Of a stretch of 51,739 nt of DNA, positions 6,037 to 26,530 are shown in pieces. Position numbers and translations under genes: made by a program. The stretch comes from Alphaproteobacteria bacterium (GTDB lineage Bacteria > Pseudomonadota > Alphaproteobacteria > Rhodobacterales > Rhodobacteraceae). The notes under the pieces are model-generated. The model was not told the origin of the DNA. It saw only the letters and a list, made by a program, of their open reading frames with translations, and did no database searches. The stretch is taken from NCBI GenBank assembly GCA_003697125.1, contig RFGB01000300.1, forward strand, positions 1 through 51,739, written 5' to 3'. How positions within the stretch are numbered: the stretch's first letter is position 1; every line of letters starts with the position of its first letter.

Positions 6037-6580
6037 CTACACGCCGCGTCTTCTTCAGCATTACCGTGACGCGGTGCGCCCGGCGCTGAAGAGCGAGTTT
6101 TCCTACCGCAACGAGATGATGATCCCGCGGCTCGACAAGATCGTGCTGAACATGGGGATCGGCGAGGCGGTTTCGGACAGCAAGAAGATCAAGTCCGCCC
6201 ATGACGACCTGATGGCCATCGCCGGCCAGAAGCCGGTGATCACCAAGGCGCGCAAGTCGATCGCGGGCTTCAAGGTGCGCGAGGGGATGCCGCTGGGCGT
6301 CAAGGTGACGCTGCGCCGGCAGCGGATGTACGAATTCCTCGACCGGCTGGTCACCGTCGCGCTGCCGCGGGTGCGCGACTTCCGCGGCGTGTCGGGCCGG
6401 TCCTTCGACGGGCGCGGCAACTACGCGCTGGGGCTGAAGGAACACATCGTCTTCCCCGAGATCGACTTCGACAAGGTCGATCAGGTCTGGGGGATGGACA
6501 TCGTGATCTGCACCACCGCCCGGACGGACGCCGAGGCAAAGGCGCTCCTGAAGCATTTCAACCTGCCGTTCCTGAACTGA
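6029..6580 (+). CDS. rplE: 50S ribosomal protein L5
   Basis: 183 residues. L5 binds 5S rRNA together with L18 and contacts P-site t[17 protein letters not shown] leads into the conserved [33 protein letters not shown] and [18 protein letters not shown] blocks. ATG 6029 lies within the end of rplX, preceded by GGGGAGAAG. The frame is open further upstream to 5843, but that part overlaps rplX and lacks similarity. Confidence 0.97.
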
Positions 6581-6593
6581 GGCGGAGGCAGAC

Positions 6594-6899
6594 ATGGCAA
6601 AGAAGAGCATGATCGCCCGCGAGGCCAAGCGCGCCCGCCTGGTGCAGAAATACGCGGCCAAGCGTGCGGCGCTGAAGGCGCGCGCGCTGGACGAGAATCT
6701 CGACATGGCCGAGCGGTTCAAGGCGCGGCTGAAGCTGGCCGAGCTGCCGCGCAACTCGTCGCCCACCAGGCTGCGCAACCGCTGCCAGGTGACCGGGCGG
6801 CCGCGGGCCTATTACCGCAAGCTGAAGATGTCGCGCATCGCGCTTCGGGACTTCGCCTCGTTCGGGCAGATCCCCGGCATGATCAAGTCGAGCTGGTGA
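6594..6899 (+). CDS. rpsN: 30S ribosomal protein S14 (zinc-free long form)
   Basis: 101 residues, the long S14 form. S14 is in the 30S head near S19. [17 protein letters not shown] and the C-terminal [21 protein letters not shown] are conserved. Only one cysteine remains in this region, so the zinc-ribbon CxxC pairs of the short C+ form are absent and the protein is the zinc-independent type. It follows rplE after a GGCGGAGG ribosome-binding site. Confidence 0.97.
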
Positions 6900-6912
6900 G
6901 GGGAGCGCAGGG

Positions 6913-7305
6913 ATGAACGATCCTCTTGGCGACATGCTGACCCGCATCCGCAATGCGCAGATGCGCGGCAAGTCCAGCGTGCGCAGCCCGGCCTCGAAGC
7001 TCCGGGGATGGGTGCTCGACGTGCTGCTGGCCGAAGGCTACATCCGCGGCTATACCCGCGACGACAGCGTGCCGGCGCGCCCGGAATTCGTGATCGAGCT
7101 GAAGTATCACGACGGCGCCCCGGTGATCCGCGAACTGAAGCGGATCTCCAAGCCCGGGCGCCGGGTCTACAAGGCGGTGAAGGACATGCCCAGCGTGCGC
7201 AACGGGCTGGGCGTGGCGATCGTCTCGACGCCCAAGGGCGTCATGTCCGACGCCCAGGCACGCGCCGACAATGTCGGCGGCGAAGTGCTCTGCACGGTGT
7301 TCTGA
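6913..7305 (+). CDS. rpsH: 30S ribosomal protein S8
   Basis: 130 residues. S8 is a primary 16S rRNA binder; in E. coli it is the translational repressor of the spc operon. [17 protein letters not shown] is the conserved start, and [22 protein letters not shown] near the C-terminus contains the S8 signature. GGGGAGCGCAGGG precedes the ATG. A repressor site was not identified. Confidence 0.97.
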
Positions 7306-9628: not shown

Positions 9629-10972
9629 ATGGCATCGGCTGCCGAACAGATGGCTGCCAACCTCAGCTGGTCGACCTTCGGGAAGGCCAAGGAACTTCAG
9701 CAGCGGATCCTGTTCGCGCTCGGGCTGCTGATCGTCTATCGCATCGGCACCTATATTCCGGTTCCGGGGATCGACGCCGCGCAGCTGCGCGCCTTCTTCG
9801 AGACGGCGCAACAGGGCATCGGCGGCGTCCTGAACATGTTCACCGGCGGGGCGATCAGCCGCATGGCGATCTTCAGCCTCGGCATCATGCCCTATATCTC
9901 GGCCTCGATCATCGTGCAGCTGGTGGCGGCGATGTATCCGCCCTGGGAACAGCTGAAGAAGGAGGGCGAGCAGGGCCGCAAAAAGCTCAACCAGTATACC
10001 CGCTACGGCACGGTGCTGCTGGCCACCGTCCAGGCCTATGGCATCGCGGTGGGGCTTGAGGGGCAGGACCTCGCCACCGATCCCGGCTGGTTCTTCCGCG
10101 CGTCCTGCGTGATCACGCTGGTCGGCGGCACGATGTTCCTGATGTGGCTGGGCGAACAGATCACCGCCCGCGGCATCGGCAACGGCATCTCGCTGATCAT
10201 CTTTGTCGGCATCGTGGCGCAGCTTCCCGGCGCGCTGGCGCGCTTCTTCGAGCTGGGGCGCACCGGACAGCTGGGCGCGCTGCTGATCCTGGGCGTGATC
10301 GTGATGGTGGTGGCGGTGGTCACCTTCGTCGTGTTCATGGAACGGGCGCTGCGCAAGATCGTCATCCAGTTCCCGAAGCGCCAGGTCGGGATGAAGATGT
10401 ATGACAGCTCGTCGTCGAACCTGCCGATCAAGGTGAACCCGTCGGGCGTGATCCCGGCGATCTTCGCCTCGTCGCTCCTGCTGCTGCCGACCACGGTGAC
10501 CGCCTTCTCGGGCCCGGATGCGACCGGCATCATGAGCTGGATCGCCGCCTTCCTCGGGCGCGGCCAGCCGCTCTACTTCGTGCTCTACGCCGTGCTGATC
10601 GTCTTCTTCACCTATTTCTACACCCAGAACGTCGCCTTCAAGACCGAGGACGTGGCCGAGAACCTGAAGAAGCAGGGCGGTTTCGTGCCCGGCCTGCGGC
10701 CGGGTGCGCGCACCGCGCAGTATCTGGACTATGTGGTGACCAGGATCCTGGTGATCGGCTCGGCCTATCTGGCGGCGGTCTGCCTGCTGCCCGAGGTGCT
10801 GATCTCGCGCACCGCGGTGCCGTTCTATTTCGGCGGCACCTCGCTTCTGATCGTCGTCTCGGTGACCATGGACACCATCAACCAGGTCCAGTCGCACATG
10901 CTGGCGCATCAATACGAGGCGCTGATCGAGAAGTCGCGCCTGCGTGGCAAGGGACGGGGCAGGCGGAAATGA
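9629..10972 (+). CDS. secY: Protein translocase subunit SecY
   Basis: 447 residues, about ten membrane helices. SecY is the channel of the SecYEG translocon in the inner membrane. Conserved features include the plug/TM2 region (GIGGVLNMFTGGAISRMAIFSLG), TM3 IMPYISASIIVQLV, the KLNQYTRYGTVLLATVQAYG segment and the cytosolic loop QGGFVPGLRPGARTAQYLDYV, whose arginine region contacts SecA and the ribosome. A start from ATG 9629 is supported by GGGAGTGG. It ends in an ATGA overlap with adk. Confidence 0.98.
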   Translation: MASAAEQMAANLSWSTFGKAKELQQRILFALGLLIVYRIGTYIPVPGIDAAQLRAFFETAQQGIGGVLNMFTGGAISRMAIFSLGIMPYISASIIVQLVAAMYPPWEQLKKEGEQGRKKLNQYTRYGTVLLATVQAYGIAVGLEGQDLATDPGWFFRASCVITLVGGTMFLMWLGEQITARGIGNGISLIIFVGIVAQLPGALARFFELGRTGQLGALLILGVIVMVVAVVTFVVFMERALRKIVIQFPKRQVGMKMYDSSSSNLPIKVNPSGVIPAIFASSLLLLPTTVTAFSGPDATGIMSWIAAFLGRGQPLYFVLYAVLIVFFTYFYTQNVAFKTEDVAENLKKQGGFVPGLRPGARTAQYLDYVVTRILVIGSAYLAAVCLLPEVLISRTAVPFYFGGTSLLIVVSVTMDTINQVQSHMLAHQYEALIEKSRLRGKGRGRRK

Positions 10973-14294: not shown

Positions 14295-15605
14295 ATGGCC
14301 GATCTGTTCGATTCCGCGCCCGATACCGCCCCGGGCGCCCCCCGCCCGCTCGCCGACCGGCTGCGCCCCGCCCGGCTGGCCGAGGTGGTCGGGCAGAACC
14401 ATCTGCTGGGGCCCGATGGCACGCTGACCAGGATGCTGGCCGCGGGGCTGCCGTCGCTGGTGCTGTGGGGACCGCCGGGGGTGGGCAAGACCACCATCGC
14501 GCGGCTGCTCGCCGCCGAGACCGCGCTGGAATTCGTGCAGATCAGCGCGATCTTCACCGGGGTTCCCGAGCTGCGCCGGATCTTCGAGGCGGCGCGGATG
14601 CGCCGGGCGCAGGGGCGCGGGACGCTGCTGTTCGTGGACGAGATCCACCGCTTCAACAAGGCCCAGCAGGACAGCTTCCTGCCGCACATGGAGGATGGCA
14701 CCATCGTTCTGGTGGGCGCCACCACCGAGAATCCGTCCTTCGAGCTGAACGCCGCGCTGCTGTCGCGGGCCCAGGTCCTGGTGCTGCACCGGCTTGACGA
14801 TGCGGCGCTGGAGGCGCTGCTGGTGCGTGCCGAGGCGGCGACCGGGCCGCTGCCGCTGACGGCCGAGGCGCGCGCGATGCTGCGGGCGATGGCCGACGGC
14901 GACGGGCGGGCGCTCATCAATCTGGTCGAACAGCTCGCCGGCGCCGAGGGGCCGCTCGACCCCGCGGCGCTGGGCGCGCGCCTGTCACGGCGCGCCGCGG
15001 TCTATGACAAGACCGGGGACGGGCATTACAACCTGATCTCGGCGCTGCACAAGTCGGTGCGCGGATCGGACCCGGACGCCGCCCTCTACTGGCTGGCGCG
15101 CATGCTGGAAGGGGGCGAGGATCCGCGCTATCTCGCCCGGCGCATCACCCGGATGGCGATCGAGGATATCGGCCTGGCCGATCCCGCGGCCCAGCGCATC
15201 TGCCTTGACGCATGGGAGATCTACGAGCGGCTGGGCTCGCCCGAGGGCGAGCTGGCGCTGGCCGAGGCGGTGATCTATCTCGCCCTGGCGCCGAAGTCGA
15301 ACGCCGCCTACACCGCCTTCGGCGCGGCGCGCGCCCTGGCGCGCCGGTCGGGATCGCTGCCGCCGCCGAAGCACATCCTGAACGCCCCCACCCGGCTGAT
15401 GCGCGAACAGGGCTATGGCGCCGGATACCGTTACGACCATGACGCCGAAGACGGGTTCTCCGGCCAGGACTACTTTCCCGAAGGCATGCAGCGCCCGGCA
15501 TTCTATGCCCCGGTGGAGCGGGGGCAGGAACGCGAGATGCGCAAGCGCCTGGCCTGGTTCGCGCGGCTGCGCGCGGAGCGCGGCCGCGCCGGGGGCGGCG
15601 GCTAG
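14295..15605 (+). CDS. rarA: Replication-associated recombination protein A (RarA/MgsA)
   Basis: 436 residues, normal length. RarA is a AAA+ ATPase of the clamp-loader-like family acting at stalled replication forks. The N-terminus PRPLADRLRPARLAEVVGQNHLLG is typical. Walker A GPPGVGKTT lies at 59-67 and Walker B LLFVDEIHRFNKAQQ at 112-126; a GATTENPSFELNAALLSR sensor-1/arginine-finger region follows. The C-terminal tetramerisation domain contains YDKTGDGHYNLISALHKSVRGSD-type sequence and PKSNAAYTAFGAA. Its TAG stop shares the CTAG at 15602-15605 with the convergent gene. Confidence 0.95.
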   Translation: MADLFDSAPDTAPGAPRPLADRLRPARLAEVVGQNHLLGPDGTLTRMLAAGLPSLVLWGPPGVGKTTIARLLAAETALEFVQISAIFTGVPELRRIFEAARMRRAQGRGTLLFVDEIHRFNKAQQDSFLPHMEDGTIVLVGATTENPSFELNAALLSRAQVLVLHRLDDAALEALLVRAEAATGPLPLTAEARAMLRAMADGDGRALINLVEQLAGAEGPLDPAALGARLSRRAAVYDKTGDGHYNLISALHKSVRGSDPDAALYWLARMLEGGEDPRYLARRITRMAIEDIGLADPAAQRICLDAWEIYERLGSPEGELALAEAVIYLALAPKSNAAYTAFGAARALARRSGSLPPPKHILNAPTRLMREQGYGAGYRYDHDAEDGFSGQDYFPEGMQRPAFYAPVERGQEREMRKRLAWFARLRAERGRAGGGG

Positions 15606-16372
15606 AGGCCCCACTTCGCCCGGGTCTGGTCGAAGAACCCGCTGATCTGCTTGATCTTGATCCAGTTGTTCACATAGTTGATCCAGACCTGATCATCCTG
15701 CGGCAGCAGCATGGCGATCAGCGAGGGCGAGCGCGGTTCCGTGTTCGCCACCCGCACCACGCCGAACTTCTCGGCCAGCGTCGCCCCCTCGATGTTCGAG
15801 GTGATGAACACGTCCGCGCGACCGGCGATCACCTCCTGAAAGCCGCGCGCCGGGGCCTCCACCACCTTTACCTGCGCGGCGGGGAACCATTCCTTGATCA
15901 TGTCGTGGAAGGTCGTGCCCAGCTCGGTCGCGACGATCACGTCGGGGCGGTTGATCGAGGCCCAGCCATCGAAGCGGCCGGCCTTGTCGGGCATGGTGAA
16001 GGGGTAGATGTCGGCGGTCAGATAGCTGTCCGAGAACCCCGCCACCTTCATCCGTGCCGGTGAGATCGAGGCCGATCCGGTGACGTGATACTTGCCGGTC
16101 ACCACCCCGTTGACCAGCGTCTTCCAGTCGGTGGGCACGAATTCGACCCGGACCCCAAGATCCTTGGCAAGTTCGGTCATCACGTCGATGTCGAAGCCCT
16201 TGTAGCTGTTGGTCGCCGGGTCGCGCACGCTCATCGGGTTCCAGTCGCCGGTCGTGCCGACCTTCAGAACCCCCGAATCGAGGATCTGATGCAGCGCCGA
16301 CTGCGCCTGCGCCGCCTGCATGCCGGCCAGCGTCAGCATCGCCGCCGCGGCGACTCCGTGGATCAGCTTCAT
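15602..16372 (-). CDS. Polar amino-acid type ABC transporter substrate-binding protein
   Basis: 256 residues. A Sec signal peptide ([20 protein letters not shown], cleavage near AQA 23) precedes an SBP family 3 fold: [16 protein letters not shown], then [22 protein letters not shown], the usual ligand-binding entry. It is expected in the periplasm, feeding the ATPase and permease genes at 16507 and 17223, which lie divergently across a 134-base gap. The family takes up amino acids and related acids; the ligand here cannot be read from sequence, but the neighbouring acyl-CoA dehydrogenase and CoA-transferase hint at a carboxylic acid. SBP-family dehydratase-like relatives (cyclohexadienyl dehydratase) also have this fold. 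Confidence 0.85.
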
Positions 16373-16459
16373 TCTCGCCTCCCTGTCTGGTTCCGCGCCG
16401 ACTCAACACCGAATCCCCCACGCCCGCAATCAGGACCTGTCGGAGTGGCAGAATCGTGT

Positions 16460-16465
16460 TAGGGT
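16460..16465 (+). promoter_or_regulatory. Possible -10 box before the ABC ATPase gene
   Basis: TAGGGT at 16460-16465 matches the TAGGGT used before dnaE in this window. A -35 at the right distance (CTGTCG, 16437-16442) is weak. It would give a leader of about 35 bases before ATG 16507. The 134-base divergent gap 16373-16506 must also hold the promoter of the minus-strand binding protein, which I could not locate. Confidence 0.3.
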
Positions 16466-16506
16466 CGGCCCGCTCAGGCCAACAGGACGGTGACCGCGCC
16501 CGGCGC

Positions 16507-17226
16507 ATGCAGAACGCGATCGAGATCAGGGGCCTCGTCAAGCGCTTCGGCGACTTCACCGCCCTGACCGGGGTGGACCTGACCGTCGCGCGGGGCGAAA
16601 GGGTGGTGATCTGCGGCCCGTCCGGATCGGGCAAGTCGACCGTGGTGCGCTGCATCGCCGGGCTGGAGATTCCCGATGGCGGCAGCATCCTCGTGGATGG
16701 CCACCCGGTGGCGCAGTCCCGCCCGGGCGAGGTCGGGATGGTCTTCCAGCAGTTCAACCTGTTTCCGCATCTGACCGTGCTGGAGAACCTGATGCTGGGG
16801 CCGATGAAGGCGCGGGGTCTGTCGCGCGCGGCGGCCGAGGCGCGGGCGCGCGCGCTGCTCGAACGGGTCCACATCCCCGAACAGGCCGACAAGCGCCCCG
16901 CCCAGCTGTCGGGCGGCCAGCAGCAGCGCGTCGCGATCGCGCGTTCGCTGTGCATGGAACCGCAGATCATGCTGTTCGACGAGCCGACCTCGGCGCTCGA
17001 TCCCGAGATGATCGCCGAGGTGCTGGACGTGATGGTCGAGCTGGCCGAGGAGGGCATGACGATGATCGTGGTCACCCATGAAATGGGCTTCGCCCGCAAG
17101 GTCGCCGACCGGATGGTGTTCATGGACCGGGGCGAGATCGTCGAGCAGGGGCCGCCCGGCCCCTTCTTCGCCGCGCCGCGGTCGGAACGCTGCCGCGCCT
17201 TCCTCGACAGGATCCTGCGGCATTGA
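16507..17226 (+). CDS. Polar amino-acid ABC transporter ATP-binding protein
   Basis: 239 residues, typical for GlnQ/HisP-type ATPases. Walker [10 protein letters not shown] lies at 37-45, Q-loop [17 protein letters not shown] at about 79-95, signature LSGGQQQR at 134-141, Walker B IMLFDEP at 154-160 and the H-loop [10 protein letters not shown] near 189. The PAAT-specific phrase FNLFPHLT supports amino-acid import. The frame is open from GTG 16456, but [16 protein letters not shown] at ATG 16507 is the family start; its Shine-Dalgarno is weak. The stop overlaps the TTG start of the permease. Confidence 0.92.
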
Positions 17227-17981
17227 GACGGCTGGCCCCCTTCCTGCTGTTGCCGCTCCTCGCCGGCTGCGCCGCCAGCCAGGCCTGGGGATGGTATGTC
17301 ATCGACCCCACCACGCCGCAGGGTCTGACCAATGTGCGCTTCCTGCTGGGCGGGATGGGCGAGACGGTGCTGATGTCGGTCCTCGCCGCGGCCGCCTCGA
17401 TGGTGCTGGGGCTGATGGTGGCGCTGCCCGCCCTGTCGGGGCACCGCGCGCTGCGCATCGTCAACCGCGTCTATGTCGAGCTGATCCGCTCGATCCCGCT
17501 GCTGCCGATGCTGTTCTGGGTGTTCTACGGCCTGCCGCTGCTGTTCCGGGCGATGGGCCTGTCGATCCCCATCGACCCCTTCTGGGGCGCGGTGATCACG
17601 CTGGCGCTGTCCGACAGCGCCTTCACCGCCGAAATCTACCGCGCCGGAATCCAGGCGGTTCCGCGCGGCCAGGCCGAGGCGGCGCGCACCATCGGCCTGT
17701 CGCGCGTCCAGACGATGCGCTATGTCATCCTGCCCCAGGCGATCCGCCGCATCCTGCCGCCGCTGGCCAACCAGTTCATCTATATCGTCAAGATGTCGGC
17801 CTTCGCCTCGGTCATCGGCATGCAGGAACTGACCCGGCGGGCGAACGAGCTTGCCGTCACCGAATACCGCCCGCTGGAAATCTACAGCTTCCTGATCCTC
17901 GAATATCTGGCCCTGGTGATGGTGATCTCGGCCGGGGTGCGCTGGCTGGAACGACGCATGGGCGCGGACGAAAGGGGCTGA
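17223..17981 (+). CDS. Polar amino-acid ABC transporter permease
   Basis: 252 residues. His/Glu/Gln/Arg/opine family permease with about five to six membrane helices. The EAA loop [29 protein letters not shown] (here split: [12 protein letters not shown], then [15 protein letters not shown]) contacts the ATPase encoded just upstream. The start appears to be TTG 17223 overlapping the ATPase stop (TTGA), with no nearby in-frame ATG. The N-terminal helix reads [16 protein letters not shown], which resembles a lipobox but is probably just a membrane segment. Together with the divergent binding protein it completes one importer. Confidence 0.88.
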
Positions 17982-19223: not shown

Positions 19224-20330
19224 ATGCGTCCGCTGGAAGGGCTTCTCGTCGTCTCGCTGGAACAGGCCGTCGCGGCGCCGATGTGCTCGTCGCGCCTGGC
19301 GGATGCCGGGGCGCGTGTCATCAAGATCGAGCGGCCCGAGGGCGACTTCGCCCGCGGCTATGACGACACGGTGAACGGGCTGTCGAGCTATTTCGTCTGG
19401 CTCAACCGCGGCAAAGAATCGATCTGCATGGATCTGGCGCGCCCGGAGGAACGCGCGCTGCTCGGCCGGATGCTCGCCCGCGCCGACGTGTTCATCCAGA
19501 ACCTGCGCCCGGGCGCGCTGGATCGCCTGGGCCTCTCGCGCGAGGAACTGGCGCGTGCCAATCCGCGGCTGATCATGCTGTCGATCACCGGCTATGGCGA
19601 AAGCGGGCCGATGGCCCGGCGCAAGGCCTATGACCTGCTGATCCAGGCCGAATCGGGACTGGCCAGCGTGACCGGCGGCCCCGAGGCGCCGGCGCGGGTC
19701 GGCATCTCGGTGGTGGACATCGCCACCGGCCATGCCGGATACGAGGCGGTGCTGGAGGCGCTGATCGCCCGCGGCATCACCGGACGGGGGGCCGATATTC
19801 GGCTGTCGATGTTCGACGTCATCGCCGACTGGATGGCGGTGCCGCTTCTGCAGCACGAGGGCGGCCGCACCCCGCAAAGGATCGGCCTCGCCCATCCCTC
19901 GATTGCCCCCTACGGCGTGTTCCGCACCGGGGATGGCGTCGATCTGCTGATCTCGATCCAGTCCGACCGCGAATGGCGCGCCCTGGCCGAACGGGTGCTG
20001 GACCGTCCGGAACTGGCCGGGGATCCGCGCTTCGCCACCAATGTCGCCCGGGTCGCCAACCGCCCCGACACCGATGGCCTGGTCGCCGCCGCCTTCGCCC
20101 GCCGCCCGATGGCGGCGCTGGTCGCGGCGCTGGAGGCGGCGGGAATCGCCTTCGCGACGGTGAACGACATGGCGGGGCTGTCGCGTCATCCGCATCTGCG
20201 CCGGGTGCGGGTGGACACGCCCGCCGGCCCGGCGGCGATCCCCGCGCCCCCCTTCGGCGACCGGCCGCTCGGCCCGGTTCCCGACCGCGACGCCCATGGC
20301 GCGGCGATACGGCGCGAATTCGCCGGCTGA
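19224..20330 (+). CDS. CaiB/BaiF family (class III) CoA-transferase
   Basis: 368 residues. Family III CoA-transferases move CoA between carboxylic acids. The N-terminal Rossmann region reads PLEGLLVVSLEQAVAAPMCSSRL-type sequence, with DAGARVIKIERPEGDFARGYD and VWLNRGKESICMDL. The catalytic aspartate is expected at Asp165 in VVDIATGH, aligned with the GDSGTG motif of formyl-CoA transferase. GGAGGG precedes ATG 19224. It likely loads the acid handled by the adjacent acyl-CoA dehydrogenase. The substrate is unknown. Confidence 0.93.
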   Translation: MRPLEGLLVVSLEQAVAAPMCSSRLADAGARVIKIERPEGDFARGYDDTVNGLSSYFVWLNRGKESICMDLARPEERALLGRMLARADVFIQNLRPGALDRLGLSREELARANPRLIMLSITGYGESGPMARRKAYDLLIQAESGLASVTGGPEAPARVGISVVDIATGHAGYEAVLEALIARGITGRGADIRLSMFDVIADWMAVPLLQHEGGRTPQRIGLAHPSIAPYGVFRTGDGVDLLISIQSDREWRALAERVLDRPELAGDPRFATNVARVANRPDTDGLVAAAFARRPMAALVAALEAAGIAFATVNDMAGLSRHPHLRRVRVDTPAGPAAIPAPPFGDRPLGPVPDRDAHGAAIRREFAG

Positions 20331-20334
20331 GCGC

Positions 20335-20348
20335 TTGACCCCGATCAA
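20335..20348 (+). promoter_or_regulatory. FNR/DNR-type box upstream of the globin gene
   Basis: TTGAC-CCCG-ATCAA (20335-20348) fits the TTGAY-N4-ATCAA consensus of the FNR/FnrL/DNR regulators with both half-sites intact. A possible -10, CATGCT at 20371-20376, would put the transcription start at about 20383, which places the box centre at -41.5, the classic class II activation position. The globin ATG is 63 bases after the box. Regulation by low oxygen or nitric oxide is inferred, not shown. Confidence 0.72.
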
Positions 20349-20411
20349 GGCGGGCTGCGGCCCGGCCGGCCATGCTGGCCATGGGCGATTCCTTGCGGGG
20401 AGGGCGGGCGC

Positions 20412-20825
20412 ATGAATCTCGACCCTGCGGAAAAGGCGGTGCTTCGCGACAGCTTCGCCGCGCTGCAGCCATATGCCGAACAGGCGTCGGTGGAATTCTA
20501 CGAGACCCTGTTCGAGCTGGACCCCCGTCTGCGCGGCCTGTTCCGCGACGATCTTCAGGGGCAGGGGATGCGGTTCATGACCGCGCTCGGGCTGGTGGTC
20601 GGGCTGCTCGACGATCCCCAACGGCTGCAGCGCCGGCTGCAGGATCTGGGGCGCGCCCATGCCGCCTTCGGCCTGACCGCGCAGGACTACCAGACCATGT
20701 CCGAGGCCTTCTACATCACGCTGCGCCAGACCCTGGGCCCGGAGCTTGCCCCCGAGGCGGGGCGGGCGTGGCGGCGCGCCTTCACGATGATGTGCGAGGC
20801 GATGCTGGCGGCGGGGCGGGACTGA
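20412..20825 (+). CDS. Single-domain globin
   Basis: 137 residues, one globin fold without reductase or sensor domain. It most resembles bacterial single-domain (Vitreoscilla-type) globins. Tyr30 in VEFYETLFELDP is in the B10 region, Phe44 in LRGLFRDD suits CD1, Gln51 in LQGQGMRF may be the distal E7 residue, and His83 in LGRAHAAFGL is the expected proximal heme ligand. Likely role: oxygen binding or nitric-oxide dioxygenation in the cytosol, needing an external reductase. The FNR/DNR box upstream supports low-oxygen or NO control. Its last 44 bases overlap the convergent gene at 20782. Confidence 0.85.
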   Translation: MNLDPAEKAVLRDSFAALQPYAEQASVEFYETLFELDPRLRGLFRDDLQGQGMRFMTALGLVVGLLDDPQRLQRRLQDLGRAHAAFGLTAQDYQTMSEAFYITLRQTLGPELAPEAGRAWRRAFTMMCEAMLAAGRD

Positions 20826-21708
20826 AGCCGGCCCGATCCTCAGCCATGGCGATCAGCCGCGCGCGCAGCGCGTCGCCCCCCTTCAGGCGGTATTCCTCGG
20901 GCGGCAGCGCCTCGAGCGCGGCGCGCATCGCGTCCAGCTCCGCGGCGGTCAGCCCGTCCAGCGGCGCGCACAGCGTCCGTATCCCGAACACCACCGCCCC
21001 GCTGCGCGGCAGGCGCATCAGGGTCTGCCGTTCCACCCGCAGCCACAGCCGCGCGGCGCGGACGTCGCGGCGGCCGGGATCATCCTCGCGCGCGGGCTGG
21101 AACAGGGCGGGGTCGTTGTGGATCACCCAGTTGGCCCGCCAGAGCGGCCGGCCGGGGCGGATCGCGTCGAACAGCCGCTGCACCCGCGCGCCCAGCGCCT
21201 GTGCGTAGAAGGTCACCGGGCGGTGGATGCGCAGAAGGCCCCGGTCCATCTTCTGCGCCAGCGTCCATCGCGCGGGAAAGCACAGCACCCCGCCGGCGAG
21301 GCGATGCTCGGCCAGCCCCTCGGGGCGGTCGAGCAGCAGCAGGTCCTCCTGCACGAGGCGGCCCGCGACCACAAGCGGATCGCCGCCGCGCGGGATGGTC
21401 ACGCCGTCGGGCCGGGTCACCCGGTCCGGGCCGATCCGGTAGCCCGGATCCGCCGCCAGCGCGTCGAGCAGCAGCGCCACAAGCTCGGCCGCCGCCGCCT
21501 CGGCACCGGGCAGAAGCGCCATCACCTCGGCGGGGCGTTCGGCGATCAGGCGGTCGCGCTCGGCCATCTGGGCCGCGAAGGTGGCGTCGCGCATCAGCCA
21601 GTCCGCCGGGTCCAGCGGCTGCACCCCGGGGCCGCGGGTCATCCGCGGGTCCATGAAGGGCAGGAGGGGCAGGCGGGGCAGATGGGTGGGCGGCAGGGGA
21701 TCGGTCAT
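20782..21708 (-). CDS. Heme-dependent oxidative N-demethylase alpha-like protein (DUF3445)
   Basis: 308 residues from ATG 21708, which overlaps the stop of the methyltransferase (ATGA). FMDPRMTRGPGVQPLDPADWL near the N-terminus, VQEDLLLLDRPEG, KMDRGLLRIHRPVTFY and ANWVIHNDPALFQP are characteristic of the family that includes the heme subunit of dimethylamine monooxygenase (DmmA) and fungal heme-dependent N-demethylase. Partner subunits (DmmB/DmmC-type reductases) are not adjacent. With a methyltransferase and a 2-oxoglutarate oxygenase in the same operon, the substrate may be an N-methylated small molecule. Family recognition is from sequence pattern only. Confidence 0.78.
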   Translation of the reverse strand: MTDPLPPTHLPRLPLLPFMDPRMTRGPGVQPLDPADWLMRDATFAAQMAERDRLIAERPAEVMALLPGAEAAAAELVALLLDALAADPGYRIGPDRVTRPDGVTIPRGGDPLVVAGRLVQEDLLLLDRPEGLAEHRLAGGVLCFPARWTLAQKMDRGLLRIHRPVTFYAQALGARVQRLFDAIRPGRPLWRANWVIHNDPALFQPAREDDPGRRDVRAARLWLRVERQTLMRLPRSGAVVFGIRTLCAPLDGLTAAELDAMRAALEALPPEEYRLKGGDALRARLIAMAEDRAGFSPAPPPASPRTSS

Positions 21709-22913
21709 GGCACGGTGGTGTAGTGCAGGCGGTTGAAGCCGGTCAGCCCGCGATGGACCGGCCCCCACAGCGCCATGAAGCCGAACCAGTCGAGCCCCGC
21801 CGCTCCGGCGATGGCGCCAAGGCTGCGCCCCGCGCCGATGCGCGCGATCAGCGGCGCGGCCGCGGCCGGGACGGCGATGCGGTGGGTGATCTCGCCATAG
21901 CTGATCGCGATCTCGCCCCTAGCGGCCACGGTGCGCGCCAGCGCCGCGGCCGGCAGCCCGTTCAGCCTGGGCACCGCCTGCGGCGTGGGGCGGGCCATGG
22001 CCGTTCCGGCCCGTGCCGCGGGGGCGAGATAGGCGACATGCATGCGGATGTCGCCCGCCAGCCTTTCGCCCAGCGCCAGCCTCTCCAGCGGTCCCAGCCT
22101 TGCGAGGCGTTCGCGGAAGGCGGGGGTGTCGGGCAGCATCCGCGCCGGGTCGTAGCGGCCCGGTTCGGTCAGCGAGACGAGTCCGAGGCCCGCGGCATCG
22201 GCCATGGCGACCAGCTCGCCGATCTCGAAGGGGCGATCGCGGGCATTGAGCAGCAGGTCATGCAGCCCGGCATCCGAGGCCTGATGGTCCGACAGGTGCG
22301 GATTGCGCAGGAACCAGTTGGTGGGGGGCAGCGCGGCCAGCGCCTGGCGGGCCAGCGCCACCCGCTCGGCGGGCGGATCCTCGCCCATCAGGGCCGCGAA
22401 GGCCTGCTGCAGCGGATAGACCCCGGTGCGGCCATGGGGGGCATAGACCATGATCCCCATCCCGCCGCCGGGCGACAGCACCCCGGCCAGCGCGGCCAGC
22501 CCCGCCGCGGGATCGGGCAGGTGATGCAGCACCCCGCAGCAATCGACATAGTCGAAGGGCCCGGGCGGCGGGTCGCACAGATCCCCGGTCAGGAAGGTCA
22601 TCCCCGACAGCCCCCGTGCCGCGGCGCGCGCCTCGGCGATGCGGCGTGCGGCCTGCGAGAGGTCGAGATAGACGATCTCGGCCGGGCAGCCGGCATCCTT
22701 CAGCTGCTGGGCCAGCTGGATCAGCCCGTCGCCGGTGCCCCCGCCCGCGACCAGCGCGCGGAATGGCCGGCGCCAGTCGCGCCGCCCGCCGAACAGGTAG
22801 TGGTCGATCTCGAACAGCGCCGAGGGCGAACCCACGACCAGCCGCCGCGCCTCGTCGGCCGGGTCGCGTTCCGGATAGGGGAAGGCCTCGTACTGGGCGC
22901 GCAACGGGTCCAT
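21705..22913 (-). CDS. Class I SAM-dependent methyltransferase with C-terminal extension
   Basis: 402 residues. N-terminal MDPLRAQYEAFPYPERDP is followed by a Rossmann methyltransferase domain: motif I LVAGGGTGDG at 54-63, acidic post-I EIVYLDLSQ, FLTGDLCDPPPGPFDYVDCC and the post-II VLHHLPDP. After about residue 290 comes an extra domain of roughly 110 residues (EIAISYGEITHRIAVP, WGPVHRGLTGFNRLHYT) of unknown role. The open frame reaches 22982, but that part overlaps the upstream gene. It starts eight bases after the oxygenase stop and overlaps the demethylase-like gene. The methyl acceptor is unknown. Confidence 0.85.
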   Translation of the reverse strand: MDPLRAQYEAFPYPERDPADEARRLVVGSPSALFEIDHYLFGGRRDWRRPFRALVAGGGTGDGLIQLAQQLKDAGCPAEIVYLDLSQAARRIAEARAAARGLSGMTFLTGDLCDPPPGPFDYVDCCGVLHHLPDPAAGLAALAGVLSPGGGMGIMVYAPHGRTGVYPLQQAFAALMGEDPPAERVALARQALAALPPTNWFLRNPHLSDHQASDAGLHDLLLNARDRPFEIGELVAMADAAGLGLVSLTEPGRYDPARMLPDTPAFRERLARLGPLERLALGERLAGDIRMHVAYLAPAARAGTAMARPTPQAVPRLNGLPAAALARTVAARGEIAISYGEITHRIAVPAAAAPLIARIGAGRSLGAIAGAAGLDWFGFMALWGPVHRGLTGFNRLHYTTVP

Positions 22914-22921
22914 CGGCCGCG

Positions 22922-23719
22922 TCAGCCGTCGGCCGCGCCGCGCAGCCCGTCCTTGCCCGCCTCGCCCGGCTGGCTGCGCCACTGCACGATCAGCGTGTCG
23001 CGCACCCCCGCGCTGCCGGGGACCAGCTCGCGCCCGTGCCAGCTGACCCGGCCCGGGGCGTCGTTGACCGCGAAGGCATAGGCGCTGTTCGGCCGGTAGG
23101 GGAAGCGCTTGACCTCCCGGAAGGGCCGGCCGGCCAGTCGGTCGATCAGCGAGCCGCGCTGATAGAGCGACGTGCCCAGCCCCTCCTGCTCGGGGCCGTG
23201 GGGGAAATAGAACTGCATGGTCACCACCCTGGGCTGGCCGTCGGGGTGGGGCTTGATCTCGTAATCCTCCGTGTCGCGCACCAGCATCAGCACCGGCCAG
23301 CCGGGCTGGTCGGCCACCTCCTCGGGGCGGACGCCGAGCCGGATGGCGATGTCGCGGCTCAGCTTGCGGTAGACCGCGCGGCGGACCGCGTCGCTGCGCA
23401 GGGCGGCGGCGATGTCCTCCCAGAAGGGGCGGCGTTCGGCGTCGATCCGCGCCATCTCGGGCCCGGCCAGATAGAGCCGGTCGCGGGTCGAGCTGCCGTC
23501 GGCGCGTTTCCAGCGCCGGGGGTTGAGCGGCAGATAGGCCTCCTTCGCGGGAAGCTTCGCCATCAGTTCGGCATAGACATCCTCGGGCAGGATGCCCTCG
23601 ATGTAGAAATGGTCGAAGGGATCGTGCTCGACCTCGGTCGCATCCACCGCGGCCGCGACATGCGCGGCGATGCGCCGGGCCCGCGCGGTCAGCCCCTCGG
23701 CAATCCTGTCTTGCTGCAT
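22922..23719 (-). CDS. 2-oxoglutarate/Fe(II)-dependent oxygenase-like protein
   Basis: 265 residues. The likely facial triad is His158 and Asp160 (KPHPDG) with His228 (SWHGREL), and Arg240 (GVRDTLIVQW) is placed to bind 2-oxoglutarate. Strands such as VVTMQFYFPHG support a double-stranded beta-helix core, and the N-terminus (DHFYIEGILPEDVYAEL) looks like prolyl-hydroxylase-type relatives. GAGGGAGGGG precedes ATG 23719, deciding against the 31-residue longer frame. First gene of a three-gene operon with a methyltransferase and a heme N-demethylase-like protein. Substrate unknown. Confidence 0.75.
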   Translation of the reverse strand: MQQDRIAEGLTARARRIAAHVAAAVDATEVEHDPFDHFYIEGILPEDVYAELMAKLPAKEAYLPLNPRRWKRADGSSTRDRLYLAGPEMARIDAERRPFWEDIAAALRSDAVRRAVYRKLSRDIAIRLGVRPEEVADQPGWPVLMLVRDTEDYEIKPHPDGQPRVVTMQFYFPHGPEQEGLGTSLYQRGSLIDRLAGRPFREVKRFPYRPNSAYAFAVNDAPGRVSWHGRELVPGSAGVRDTLIVQWRSQPGEAGKDGLRGAADG

Positions 23720-23749
23720 GCGCCCCTCCCTCGCGGCCCGCCTGGCGGC

Positions 23750-23755
23750 GTTATA
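23750..23755 (-). promoter_or_regulatory. Likely -10 box of the oxygenase-methyltransferase-demethylase operon
   Basis: On the minus strand TATAAC (23755-23750) is a near-consensus -10 and stands out in very GC-rich surroundings. The -35 region 17 bases upstream (TCGCCT) is poor, so an activator may be needed. Transcription would start near 23743, about 24 bases before the ATG. The 76-base gap after the ABC permease makes this a separate transcription unit. Confidence 0.5.
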
Positions 23756-23795
23756 GCGCGCGCGGGCCGGACAGGCGAGGGGTGCGCGGCGCGGT

Positions 23796-24725
23796 TCAGC
23801 GCGCCGCGACACCCTTGCCGTAATGGCGTTCGATGCGGGCCTGCACCGCCTCGAAGGCCATCGACAGGATCCAGTAGATCACCGCCGCGGCGATCAGCAT
23901 CTCGACATACTTGAACTCGGCCTTGCCATGGGTGCGGGCCATGTACATCAGGTCCCATGCGCCCAGCACCGAGACGAGGCTCGAATCCTTCAGCATCGCG
24001 ATGAACTGGTTGCCGGTGGGCGGGATGATCAGCCGGATCGCCTGGGGCAGGATGACCAGGCGCATGATCTGGCCGGGCTTCAGCCCCAGCGCGCGCGCGG
24101 CCTCGGTCTGGCCGGCGGGGATCGCCTGGATTCCGGCGCGGAAGATCTCTGCCATGTAGGCGCCATAGCACAGCGACAGGGCGATGATCGCGCTGGGCAC
24201 CGGGGTCAGCACCACGCCCAGCTGCGGCAGGCCCAGATAGATCAGCAGGATCTGCAGCAAGAGCGGCGTGCCGCGGAAGAACGAGATGTAGAAGGTCGCG
24301 ATCCCCACCGCGATGCCGTTGCCCGACAGGCGCGCCAGCGCCGCGATTAGGGCGATGATGGTCGAGACGGCGATGGCCACGAAGCAGATGAACAGCGTCA
24401 GTGCCGCGCCGATCAGGAAGCCGCGGTTGAGTTCGGTTCCGACCAGATAGGGAAGCCGTGACCAGATATAGGCGTAGGAGAGGTTGAAGCTCCAGAAGAA
24501 CAGTGCGAACAGCGCGGCGAGCTCGATCCAGGCGATCACGATCTGGATGCGGAAGGGTAGCCGGCCCACCACCCAGACATTGGCCACCAGCACCGCCGCG
24601 ATCAGGATGCGGCTCGACCAGGCATCGCCGGTCAAGGCCGAGAAGTCGAAGGGCAGCAGCACCACCAGGGCGGCGAGGAAACCCGCCGCCCAGGGCGCCG
24701 CCTGCCGGGCGTCCGGCGCGGTCAC
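23796..24725 (-). CDS. Amino-acid ABC transporter permease
   Basis: 309 residues with a GTG start. The first 100 residues contain about three extra membrane helices (LAALVVLLPFDFSAL, ILIAAVLVANVWVVG, WIELAALFALFFW), followed by the conserved HisM/GlnP core: GAALTLFICFVAIAVST, FYISFFRGTPLLLQILLIY and the EAA loop GQTEAARALGLKPGQIMRLV with LPQAIRLIIPP. It starts four bases after the binding-protein stop, so the two are co-expressed. No ATPase gene follows; the ATPase must be encoded elsewhere or borrowed. Confidence 0.9.
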   Translation of the reverse strand: MTAPDARQAAPWAAGFLAALVVLLPFDFSALTGDAWSSRILIAAVLVANVWVVGRLPFRIQIVIAWIELAALFALFFWSFNLSYAYIWSRLPYLVGTELNRGFLIGAALTLFICFVAIAVSTIIALIAALARLSGNGIAVGIATFYISFFRGTPLLLQILLIYLGLPQLGVVLTPVPSAIIALSLCYGAYMAEIFRAGIQAIPAGQTEAARALGLKPGQIMRLVILPQAIRLIIPPTGNQFIAMLKDSSLVSVLGAWDLMYMARTHGKAEFKYVEMLIAAAVIYWILSMAFEAVQARIERHYGKGVAAR

Positions 24726-24729
24726 GGCG

Positions 24730-25557
24730 TCACTTGGTCAGGTCGACGCCATACCATTTCTCCGACAGGGCCGAGAGCGTCCCGTCGGCATGCATGGCGG
24801 CGACGATCTCGGCAATGCGGGCGCCGAATTCCGGATCGCCCTTGTCGATCGCCACCGACAGCGGTTCCAGGAACAGCGGATCGCCGACGATCTTGACGGG
24901 ATAGCCGTTGCGGATCGCCGCGGTGATGGTGGGCAGGGCGGTGATCACGGCATCGAGCCTGAGCCCGTCGCCGAGCCGCAGGTCGTCGAGCGCCAGCGAG
25001 TCGGTGTCATAGGTGCGGATCTCGGCATCGCGGATGCGATAGCTGAAGGGCGGGGCGCCGACCGCGTCGATCTCCAGTGCGCCCTTGAGATAGGCCTCAT
25101 AGGTCGTGGCCACGCCCACCCCGATCACCTTGCCCGAGGCATCCTCGGGCGCGCGGATGGTGGTGTTGGCCTCATGCACCGCAAGCGATGCCGGCGTGTA
25201 GTAGTAGATCGCCGGAAAGTCGAGCACCTTGGCCCGCTCCTTGGTGGGGGTCATCGAACCCACCGAGATGTCCCAGCGCCCGGACCAGTTGCCCGCGGTG
25301 ATCACGTCCCAGCCGGGTGTGACGAATTCGATGCGCACGCCAAGCCGCTTCGCGATCTCGGTGGCCACGTCGATGTCGAACCCCTCGAATTCGTTGTTCG
25401 CGTTCAGCGAGGATTGCGGCGGGTATTCCGGATCGGTCGAGCAGACCAGCACCCCCTTCGACAGCACCCGGTCCAGCACCTCGCCGGCCTGCGACGCGAT
25501 CGGAACCAGCGCCGCGACGAAAGCCAGCGCGGCCGAGGACAGCCAGTTCATCTTCAT
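24730..25557 (-). CDS. Amino-acid ABC transporter substrate-binding protein
   Basis: 275 residues. Signal peptide MKMNWLSSAALAFVAALVPI with cleavage near SQA24. The mature SBP family 3 sequence shows VLVCSTDPEYPPQSSLN, FEGFDIDVATEIAKRLGVRIEF and GRWDISVGSMTPTKERAKVLDF, where the arginine of the TKERAK motif normally holds the ligand alpha-carboxylate. GGGAGAC precedes ATG 25557. The frame stays open to 26190 through arsR-arsC on the other strand, which is a shadow. Ligand unknown; an amino acid is likely. Confidence 0.9.
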   Translation of the reverse strand: MKMNWLSSAALAFVAALVPIASQAGEVLDRVLSKGVLVCSTDPEYPPQSSLNANNEFEGFDIDVATEIAKRLGVRIEFVTPGWDVITAGNWSGRWDISVGSMTPTKERAKVLDFPAIYYYTPASLAVHEANTTIRAPEDASGKVIGVGVATTYEAYLKGALEIDAVGAPPFSYRIRDAEIRTYDTDSLALDDLRLGDGLRLDAVITALPTITAAIRNGYPVKIVGDPLFLEPLSVAIDKGDPEFGARIAEIVAAMHADGTLSALSEKWYGVDLTK

Positions 25558-25583
25558 GTCTCCCTGTTGAACCCGTGTCCCCG

Positions 25584-25611
25584 ACCATACAGCGCGGGGC
25601 GGTTCGATCAA
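25584..25611 (-). promoter_or_regulatory. Promoter of the amino-acid ABC genes
   Basis: On the minus strand TTGATC (25611-25606) and TATGGT (25589-25584) are spaced 16 bases, good sigma-70 boxes. Transcription would start near 25577, about 20 bases before ATG 25557. The promoter lies back-to-back with the arsR operator, 16 bases away. Confidence 0.6.
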
Positions 25612-25626
25612 CGGGCGCCGCGGATA

Positions 25627-25655
25627 TTGCAACCCTGCAAGAAGGGTTGTAGCAA
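25627..25655 (+). promoter_or_regulatory. Putative ArsR operator (inverted repeat)
   Basis: TTGC-AACCCT (25627-25636) and AGGGTT-GTA-GCAA (25643-25655) form an imperfect inverted repeat around six bases. It lies immediately before the arsR start, the usual site of ArsR autorepression, and may overlap a weak -10 (GATATT at 25623-25628). The right arm also covers the AAGG ribosome-binding site. Confidence 0.55.
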
Positions 25656-25661
25656 GGCCGC

Positions 25662-26036
25662 GTGACCGAACCCGAAGCCATCGCCGCCCTCGCCGCCCTG
25701 GCCCATCGCGACCGGCTGGCCGCCTTCCGGGCGCTGGTCGCCGCCGCGCCGGAGGGGCTGGCCTCGGGCGCGCTGGCCGCAAGGCTGGGCATTCCGCCCA
25801 CGCGGATGAGCTTCCACCTCGCGGCACTGGCCCGCGCCGGGCTGGTCGCGGCCAGCCGGCAGGGCAGGCAGGTGCGCTATGGCCTGGTCGATTCGCGGAT
25901 GCGCGCGCTGCTGGCCTTCCTGATGGCGGATTGCTGCGCGGGCCGGCCCGAGCTGTGCGGCGTGGCGCTTGCCCCCGGCGCGCCCTGGGCGGCGGGCCGA
26001 TGCACCGCCCCCGCCGATGACGGAGACGCGCAATGA
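25662..26036 (+). CDS. arsR: ArsR-family metalloregulator
   Basis: 124 residues with a GTG start. Winged helix-turn-helix repressor; LAARLGIPPTRMSFHLAALARAGLV (recognition helix about residues 38-62) followed by the wing SRQGRQVRYGLV. The classic CVC-type cysteines in the recognition helix are absent. Instead Cys91, Cys92 and Cys99 (DCCAGRPELCG) lie near the C-terminus, like the Acidithiobacillus-type ArsR that binds As(III) there. Overlaps arsC by ATGA. A palindrome directly upstream suggests autorepression. Confidence 0.88.
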   Translation: MTEPEAIAALAALAHRDRLAAFRALVAAAPEGLASGALAARLGIPPTRMSFHLAALARAGLVAASRQGRQVRYGLVDSRMRALLAFLMADCCAGRPELCGVALAPGAPWAAGRCTAPADDGDAQ

Positions 26037-26530
26037 CCGAGCCCCTGTCGGTGCTGTTCCTGTGCACGGCGAATTCGGCCCGCTCGATCATCGCCGAGGC
26101 GGTTCTGAACGCCGAGGGTCGCGGGCGGTTTCGCGCCTTCTCGGCCGGTGCCCGCCCGGCGGGGCGGGTCAATCCGCTGGCCATCGCCACCCTTGCCGAG
26201 GCGGGCTATCCCGTCGCCGGGCTGGACTCGAAGTCCTGGGACCGGTTCGCCGGTCCCGGCGCGCCGCGGATGGATGCGATCATCACCGTCTGCGACCAGG
26301 CGGCCGGCGAGCTCTGCCCGATCTGGCCGGGCCATCCGGTCACCGCCCATTGGGGCCTGCCCGATCCGGCGGCCGTCACCGGCGCCGAGGCCGAGCGCCG
26401 CGCGGCCTTCGCCGCCACGCTTGCCGCGCTGCGCCGGCGCATCGGCGCGCTGGTGTCGACGCCCGGGCTGTCCGCCGACCCGGCCCGGCTGCGCGCGCGG
26501 CTTGCCGCGATCGGTCAGGCCGAGGGCTGA
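26033..26530 (+). CDS. arsC: Arsenate reductase, low-molecular-weight phosphatase type
   Basis: 165 residues. Reduces As(V) to As(III) in the cytosol using thioredoxin-type electrons. The P-loop is CTANSARS (Cys11 and Arg17, the CX5R motif). Cys87 and Cys95 (TVCDQAAGELCP) fit the redox cysteine pair of the Staphylococcus pI258-type enzyme, and Asp111 in GLPDPA is the general acid. It starts in the arsR stop. No arsenite exporter is next to it. The last 16 bases overlap the convergent CDF gene. Confidence 0.9.
   Translation: MTEPLSVLFLCTANSARSIIAEAVLNAEGRGRFRAFSAGARPAGRVNPLAIATLAEAGYPVAGLDSKSWDRFAGPGAPRMDAIITVCDQAAGELCPIWPGHPVTAHWGLPDPAAVTGAEAERRAAFAATLAALRRRIGALVSTPGLSADPARLRARLAAIGQAEG

Follow-up and report, generated by a model that had tools for sequence, protein, structure and literature searches.

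A paired methyltransferase and HODM/DmmA-like protein in Rhodobacteraceae, an oxygenase added in one genus, and a possible tie to dddP

What do three adjacent genes for a 2-oxoglutarate (2OG)/Fe(II)-type oxygenase, an S-adenosylmethionine (SAM)-dependent methyltransferase and a relative of dimethylamine monooxygenase do together in a member of the Rhodobacteraceae? The genes lie in a 51,739-nucleotide stretch of DNA (contig RFGB01000300.1 of assembly GCA_003697125.1), here called the window. They span positions 20782-23719 of the minus strand in the order oxygenase (P0001, 22922-23719, 265 aa), class I SAM-dependent methyltransferase (MT, P0002, 21705-22913, 402 aa) and a HODM/DmmA-like gene of a short subfamily (HD, P0003, 20782-21708, 308 aa). 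The initial annotation regarded them as one operon of linked methyl enzymes that may make or recycle an N-methylated compound. The close packing on which it relied is present: 8 nt separate the oxygenase gene from MT (22914-22921, minus strand), and the start of HD overlaps the stop of MT in the sequence ATGA (21705-21708, minus strand). The enzyme types and the link between MT and HD also stood up, while the oxygenase did not prove to be a conserved member of the group.

The pairing of MT and HD was examined in 325 genomes of the family, which represent 324 genera and include the window's own genome. MT was matched at E < 1e-40 in 74 of these genomes. In 25 of the 74 loci HD is its neighbour on the same strand, with MT first in 11 and HD first in 14; this recurrence is more than chance. 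The exact 4-nt overlap occurs in 17 of the 25 pairs, the window's included, nine of them with one gene order and eight with the reverse. In a tree built from the MT proteins by a quick method the gene order requires at least three changes among the 25 pairs, and adjacency to HD requires 11 changes, compared with a mean of 20.9 and a minimum of 14 in 200 shuffles. Because the swaps in order keep the overlap, inherited position alone hardly accounts for the linkage of MT and HD.

The complete set behaves differently. The order oxygenase-MT-HD was found in one of the 325 genomes, the window's own, and in no other. Of the three outcomes that the initial annotation named as refuting it, the lack of this order in related genomes did occur, while the PF11927 match and the iron triad were both confirmed. 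The oxygenase was matched in five genomes, strongly only in the window's and in one of the same genus (G001, 69% identity); the other three matches lie on different contigs from the MT and HD matches of the same genome, or more than 1 Mb away from them. With one occurrence in 325 genomes and unlinked oxygenase matches elsewhere, a recurrent three-gene cassette is ruled out, and the oxygenase is a genus-level addition. In the congener G001 the oxygenase gene is followed by MT and then, at the contig edge, by a partial gene; dddP lies upstream in divergent orientation. The partial gene has no Pfam match and is not HD. It has a 48% match to an endonuclease/exonuclease/phosphatase-type gene of G303, whose pair is closely related to that of the window and in which this gene separates MT from HD. 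Given this arrangement in G303, an HD gene of G001 may lie past the contig end; no PF11927 match was found in the G001 genome, which is 84% complete. Genes of the endonuclease/exonuclease/phosphatase family were located at 6129-7043 of locus L153 (PF03372, 1.7e-25) and at 3-401 of L073.

HD was described initially as a DUF3445/DmmA heme subunit. The family holds: the 308-residue protein matches PF11927 (HODM_asu-like) at 3.4e-57, with 194.3 bits against a curated cut-off of 25, and is the sole PF11927 match in the window's genome. HODM is a small-molecule enzyme, an oxidative N-demethylase. The solved HODM structure 5lte is matched at 2.3e-14 by HD alone and at 2.2e-25 with the family profile. 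The identification with DmmA proper fails at one residue. We aligned 57 of 60 short-form sequences (three were dropped for stops), and D122, W148, L150, H162, R191, R224, E226, Q228 and F241 are fixed in all 57 and common to three long DmmA-like forms. Lys153 (codon 21250-21252) is likewise fixed in 57/57 short forms, whereas the same column holds Asp in the three long forms; Asp was seen in all eight long forms compared over this stretch, a set that includes these three genes, and also in 5lte. The short forms also carry F144 where the long forms have Thr and 5lte has Cys, and D101 (54/57) where the long forms have Leu or Met. This fixed Lys, in place of the Asp of DmmA forms, rules out that HD is DmmA itself. 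Six of the nine long-form genomes sampled hold a short form too (G087 was counted as a short form). Judged by these residues, HD is a separate subfamily of HODM/DmmA-like proteins, which would probably carry out heme-PAS oxygenase chemistry on a substrate other than that of DmmA. His162 (21223-21225) is the putative heme ligand, since it is the only fixed His in HD, and the exchange of Asp for Lys hints at a negatively charged substrate. The earlier remark that the dmmBC partners are lacking was borne out for the neighbours of HD: in the window it is flanked by MT and a convergent globin gene, and no dmmB/C/D or other reductase gene adjoins it, although no genome-wide search for dmmB/C was made.

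The clearest clue from the context is dddP, the gene for a lyase that forms dimethylsulfide (DMS) from dimethylsulfoniopropionate (DMSP). DddP exceeded the curated cut-off (NCBIfam NF043017) in 33 of 101 genomes. Of these 33, 24 have a short-form HD gene divergent from dddP at a distance of up to 477 bp, and one more (G005) has MT between the two. A contig of this last genome (locus L074) carries two dddP genes that pass the cut-off, with starts about 4 kb apart, and five matches to cupin DMSP lyases lie elsewhere in the genome. Seen from MT, dddP stands on the opposite strand within 2.3 kb in 19 of the 74 loci, 16 of which also have HD. Seen from HD, it is the commonest 5' neighbour (15 of 31 loci). 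Across the 325 genomes dddP and HD occur together in 152, dddP alone in 26, HD alone in 88 and neither in 59 (Fisher p 2.7e-7, uncorrected for kinship). This context favours methylated sulfur compounds no less than an N-methylated one. The initial interpretation, taken as a whole, is partly supported.

Relatives such as those at L171, L077 and L128 bear a palindrome, AAAMCGACMTG-N4-CAKGTCGKTTT, in the intergenic region between dddP and HD or MT. It lies 78-86 bp before dddP and reaches at least 16 of 22 positions in 9 of 39 dddP-divergent intergenic stretches (0.00 expected from shuffles), a count that is inflated because these very sequences served to draw up the pattern by eye. The palindrome is absent from the window, and it reaches 16 in only one of 13 MT loci without a neighbouring dddP (window included). 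For these reasons it is treated as dddP's own putative operator.

Starting from what was observed directly, namely the gene families, their residues, the reading-frame overlap and the recurrent dddP neighbourhood in relatives, we infer the chemical steps as follows. The core of the system would be a translationally coupled SAM methyltransferase and HODM-like heme-PAS oxygenase, which a 2OG/Fe(II) oxygenase would have joined in this genus. HD would bind heme and oxidise a small methylated compound other than dimethylamine, most likely in an oxidative demethylation that releases formaldehyde. MT would act on the substrate of HD or on the product, and the two enzymes together would thereby control the degree of methylation. 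In the dddP-bearing relatives this pathway would be tied to DMSP and methyl-sulfur chemistry, and the compound would plausibly belong to the pool of DMSP and DMS. The window's organism, which is without dddP, would have retained the pair and added a hydroxylating step in front of it. Taken as a whole, this two-enzyme core with its genus-added oxygenase and its methyl-sulfur tie in relatives is a tentative proposal, which has a real chance of being right but is somewhat more apt to be wrong.

Several observations weigh against it. Of the 325 genomes, 88 have HD but no dddP and 26 have dddP but no HD, and MT and dddP co-occur with no excess over chance in the same genomes (p 0.18). The association between presence of MT and presence of HD is itself weak (p 0.034, 325 genomes), and 49 of the 74 MT genes were not seen beside HD, a few of them being on short contigs. 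HD and dddP are often part of a conserved block of the chromosome that also holds glnA and further genes, so some of their adjacency comes from plain inheritance. A search of the window's genome gave no dddP ortholog and no cupin DMSP lyase (PF16867), and a role in DMSP metabolism there is therefore unproven. Finally, the heme and substrate pockets of HD were deduced from sequence alone, the models being too poor for this purpose (pLDDT 45 and 41 for the oxygenase and HD).

Some of these same facts would suit an operon for the synthesis or recycling of a small N-methylated molecule that has no connection to DMSP, with HD as a demethylase of a secondary amine other than dimethylamine, MT as the N-methylating partner and the oxygenase as a second oxidative step. 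HODM, whose structure is solved (5lte), acts as an oxidative N-demethylase. Among the 45 loci compared, 22 genomes have a glnA-like gene no more than three called genes away from HD, which would fit the release of nitrogen, and the window's genome lacks both DddP and the cupin type of DMSP lyase. However, HD has a fixed Lys where DmmA has Asp, the gene most often found 5' of HD is dddP, and no dmmB/C/D gene adjoins HD in the window. We regard this alternative as doubtful, albeit worth keeping in view.

The oxygenase bears on a further alternative. Its predicted iron- and 2OG-binding residues are His158 (23246-23248), Asp160 (23240-23242), His228 (23036-23038) and Arg240 (23000-23002), the HxD...H...R set first noted in the single protein. 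All four are invariant in 11 of 11 aligned sequences, the window protein included; L010, which is without these residues, was excluded as no true relative. The expected match to a 2OG-Fe(II) family was obtained only in relatives: PF13640 was matched by 5 of the 11 members (E up to 0.01), and the window protein, which is not one of them, matched no 2OG model in Pfam (E up to 1) or NCBIfam. The family profile matches the solved hydroxylase 9blq (2.7e-9) and the prolyl-4-hydroxylase-type domain 9ei6 (9e-4). The AlphaFold model has a mean pLDDT (predicted local distance difference test) of 45.4 with a two-row alignment as input, and that of HD a mean of 41.1. Among the material searched, relatives more than 50% identical were found in one congener and in one alphaproteobacterial metagenome-assembled genome. 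The latter (L072, 53%), the nearest outside the genus, has its oxygenase tail to tail with an FkbM methyltransferase, and glycosyltransferase and acyltransferase genes are close by. The oxygenase-FkbM pairing occurs also in L100, L101 and a plasmid of Aquicella lusitana (L214). Flagellin genes are annotated close to the Aquicella pair, and a gene near the L100 pair scores 22.6 as flagellin, just below the Pfam cut-off of 23 bits. Of the 11 loci whose neighbouring genes could be read, five (G001, L072, L100, L101 and Aquicella L214) have a methyltransferase next to the oxygenase relative. None was seen adjoining it in L099, L102, L212, L220, L221 and L222, the last four judged from translations without a profile search; L006-L009 were left out of the count as their flanks are too short. 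This pattern suggests a hydroxylase that at times works beside a methyltransferase and was here recruited ahead of a different one.

In a further reading the three genes would share no pathway. Their neighbourhood would be inherited chromosomal order, HD would serve as a sensor or redox protein of the heme-PAS type, and the oxygenase would be a hydroxylase of glycans or peptides that was inserted here by chance. That many genera keep HD and dddP in one block together with glnA and further genes would agree with this, as would the 49 of 74 genomes in which MT was not seen beside HD and the FkbM methyltransferases beside the wider oxygenase family in four loci, some near glycan or flagellin genes. 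Yet the 4-nt overlap kept in both orders (17 of 25 pairs) is not expected from inheriting one arrangement, and the family residues of HD are fixed in 57/57 sequences. We consider such a lack of a shared pathway unlikely.

The methyltransferase is readily recognised. The window protein matches Methyltransf_12 at 1e-15 and has the SAM motif VAGGGTGDG, which agrees with the motif I originally assigned to it; AGGGTGD is invariant in 24 MT sequences, and all 24 match Methyltransf_12. A search of plasmids with MT gave no match. Structure 8hkr, a protein lysine methyltransferase by its depositors' name (PDB 8hkr), is matched at 2.7e-16 by the window MT alone and at 1e-36 by the MT family profile, over positions 38-319. 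By this profile match MT is related to the solved protein-lysine methyltransferase beyond the SAM domain.

Methyl-lysine is a secondary amine, as is dimethylamine. An improbable write-and-erase pair, in which MT would methylate protein lysines as 8hkr does by its name and HD would remove the N-methyl groups from lysine side chains by oxidation, could draw on that 1e-36 match, which extends well past the SAM domain, and on the coupling of MT and HD in both orders, but homology does not fix the substrate, the match leaves out the last ~80 positions and HODM is a small-molecule enzyme.

The initial annotation gave the three genes a -10 element of their own, and its letters, TATAAC, are present at 23755-23750 (minus strand), without a consensus-level promoter. 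A consensus scan of 20300-24800 found 0 promoter-like sites against 0.3 expected, which rules out a consensus sigma-70 promoter before the oxygenase gene. An ATP-binding cassette (ABC)-permease gene upstream ends 76 nt 5' of the oxygenase ATG. With this spacing a shared transcript of the permease gene and the oxygenase-MT-HD genes is possible, and, as the scan also finds no promoter, one belonging to the three genes is unproven. Genes for polar-amino-acid-type ABC transporters lie on both sides, at 23796-26190 (minus strand) and 15602-17981. On the other flank a single-domain globin gene (20412-20825, plus strand; PF00042, 3.2e-15) is convergent with HD, and the two genes share 44 nt at the 3' end of HD. 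The window also contains the genes for ribosomal protein L2 (2136-2969) and SecY (9629-10972), both on the plus strand, and the three genes are therefore not far from a ribosomal protein cluster.

The component parts of the system are of known kinds. Passages in two papers place dddP among the commonest DMSP-lyase genes of marine bacteria (PMC5395565, PMC13360808), and the recent review among them states that the gene for the oxidation of DMSP to dimethylsulfoxonium propionate (DMSOP) is not known (PMC13360808). Among the titles, abstract beginnings and passages of the open-licence literature no paper was recognised that links dddP with the heme-protein family of HD, and passages of two DUF3445 papers (PMC6214176, PMC6320622) have no bearing on the MT-HD pair. 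A gene of a heme-oxygenase family is nevertheless divergent from dddP in 24 of 33 sampled dddP genomes. HD is a concrete candidate for the DMSP-to-DMSOP gene and related questions, and the coupled MT a second candidate enzyme of the unit. A bolder version of our proposal would have the short HD proteins divergent from dddP supply missing oxidative enzymes of methyl-sulfur metabolism, converting DMS to methanethiol and formaldehyde or to dimethyl sulfoxide, or DMSP to DMSOP, while MT balances the methyl groups and the window represents a lyase-less derivative with an extra hydroxylase; we think it a long shot.

The system can be compared with four known ones. MT resembles the protein-lysine methyltransferase 8hkr in the SAM domain and in the region that follows (SDxxLxDxxL and a YTVEE-like stretch), but the relationship is distant for the window protein alone (2.7e-16), and the last ~80 MT positions fall outside the match. 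The oxygenase shares with the 2OG/Fe(II) oxygenases (PF13640; 9blq, 9ei6) the HxD...H...R set and the match of its family profile to hydroxylases; it differs in that the window protein by itself matches no 2OG model. HD resembles the alpha subunit of HODM and DmmA, the dimethylamine monooxygenase (5lte; PF11927), over the whole domain and at the D, W, H, R, RxExQ and F positions. It differs in Lys153 for Asp, Phe144 for Thr (Cys in 5lte) and Asp101 for Leu/Met, and in a context with no adjoining dmmB/C/D, a methyltransferase as partner and dddP beside its relatives. The fourth is the DddP DMSP-lyase locus of the Rhodobacteraceae. Here the likeness is one of neighbourhood, as relatives of HD and MT are the divergent neighbours of dddP; the difference is that dddP is absent from the window's genome, while in the congener G001 it is present, divergent from the oxygenase and MT genes.

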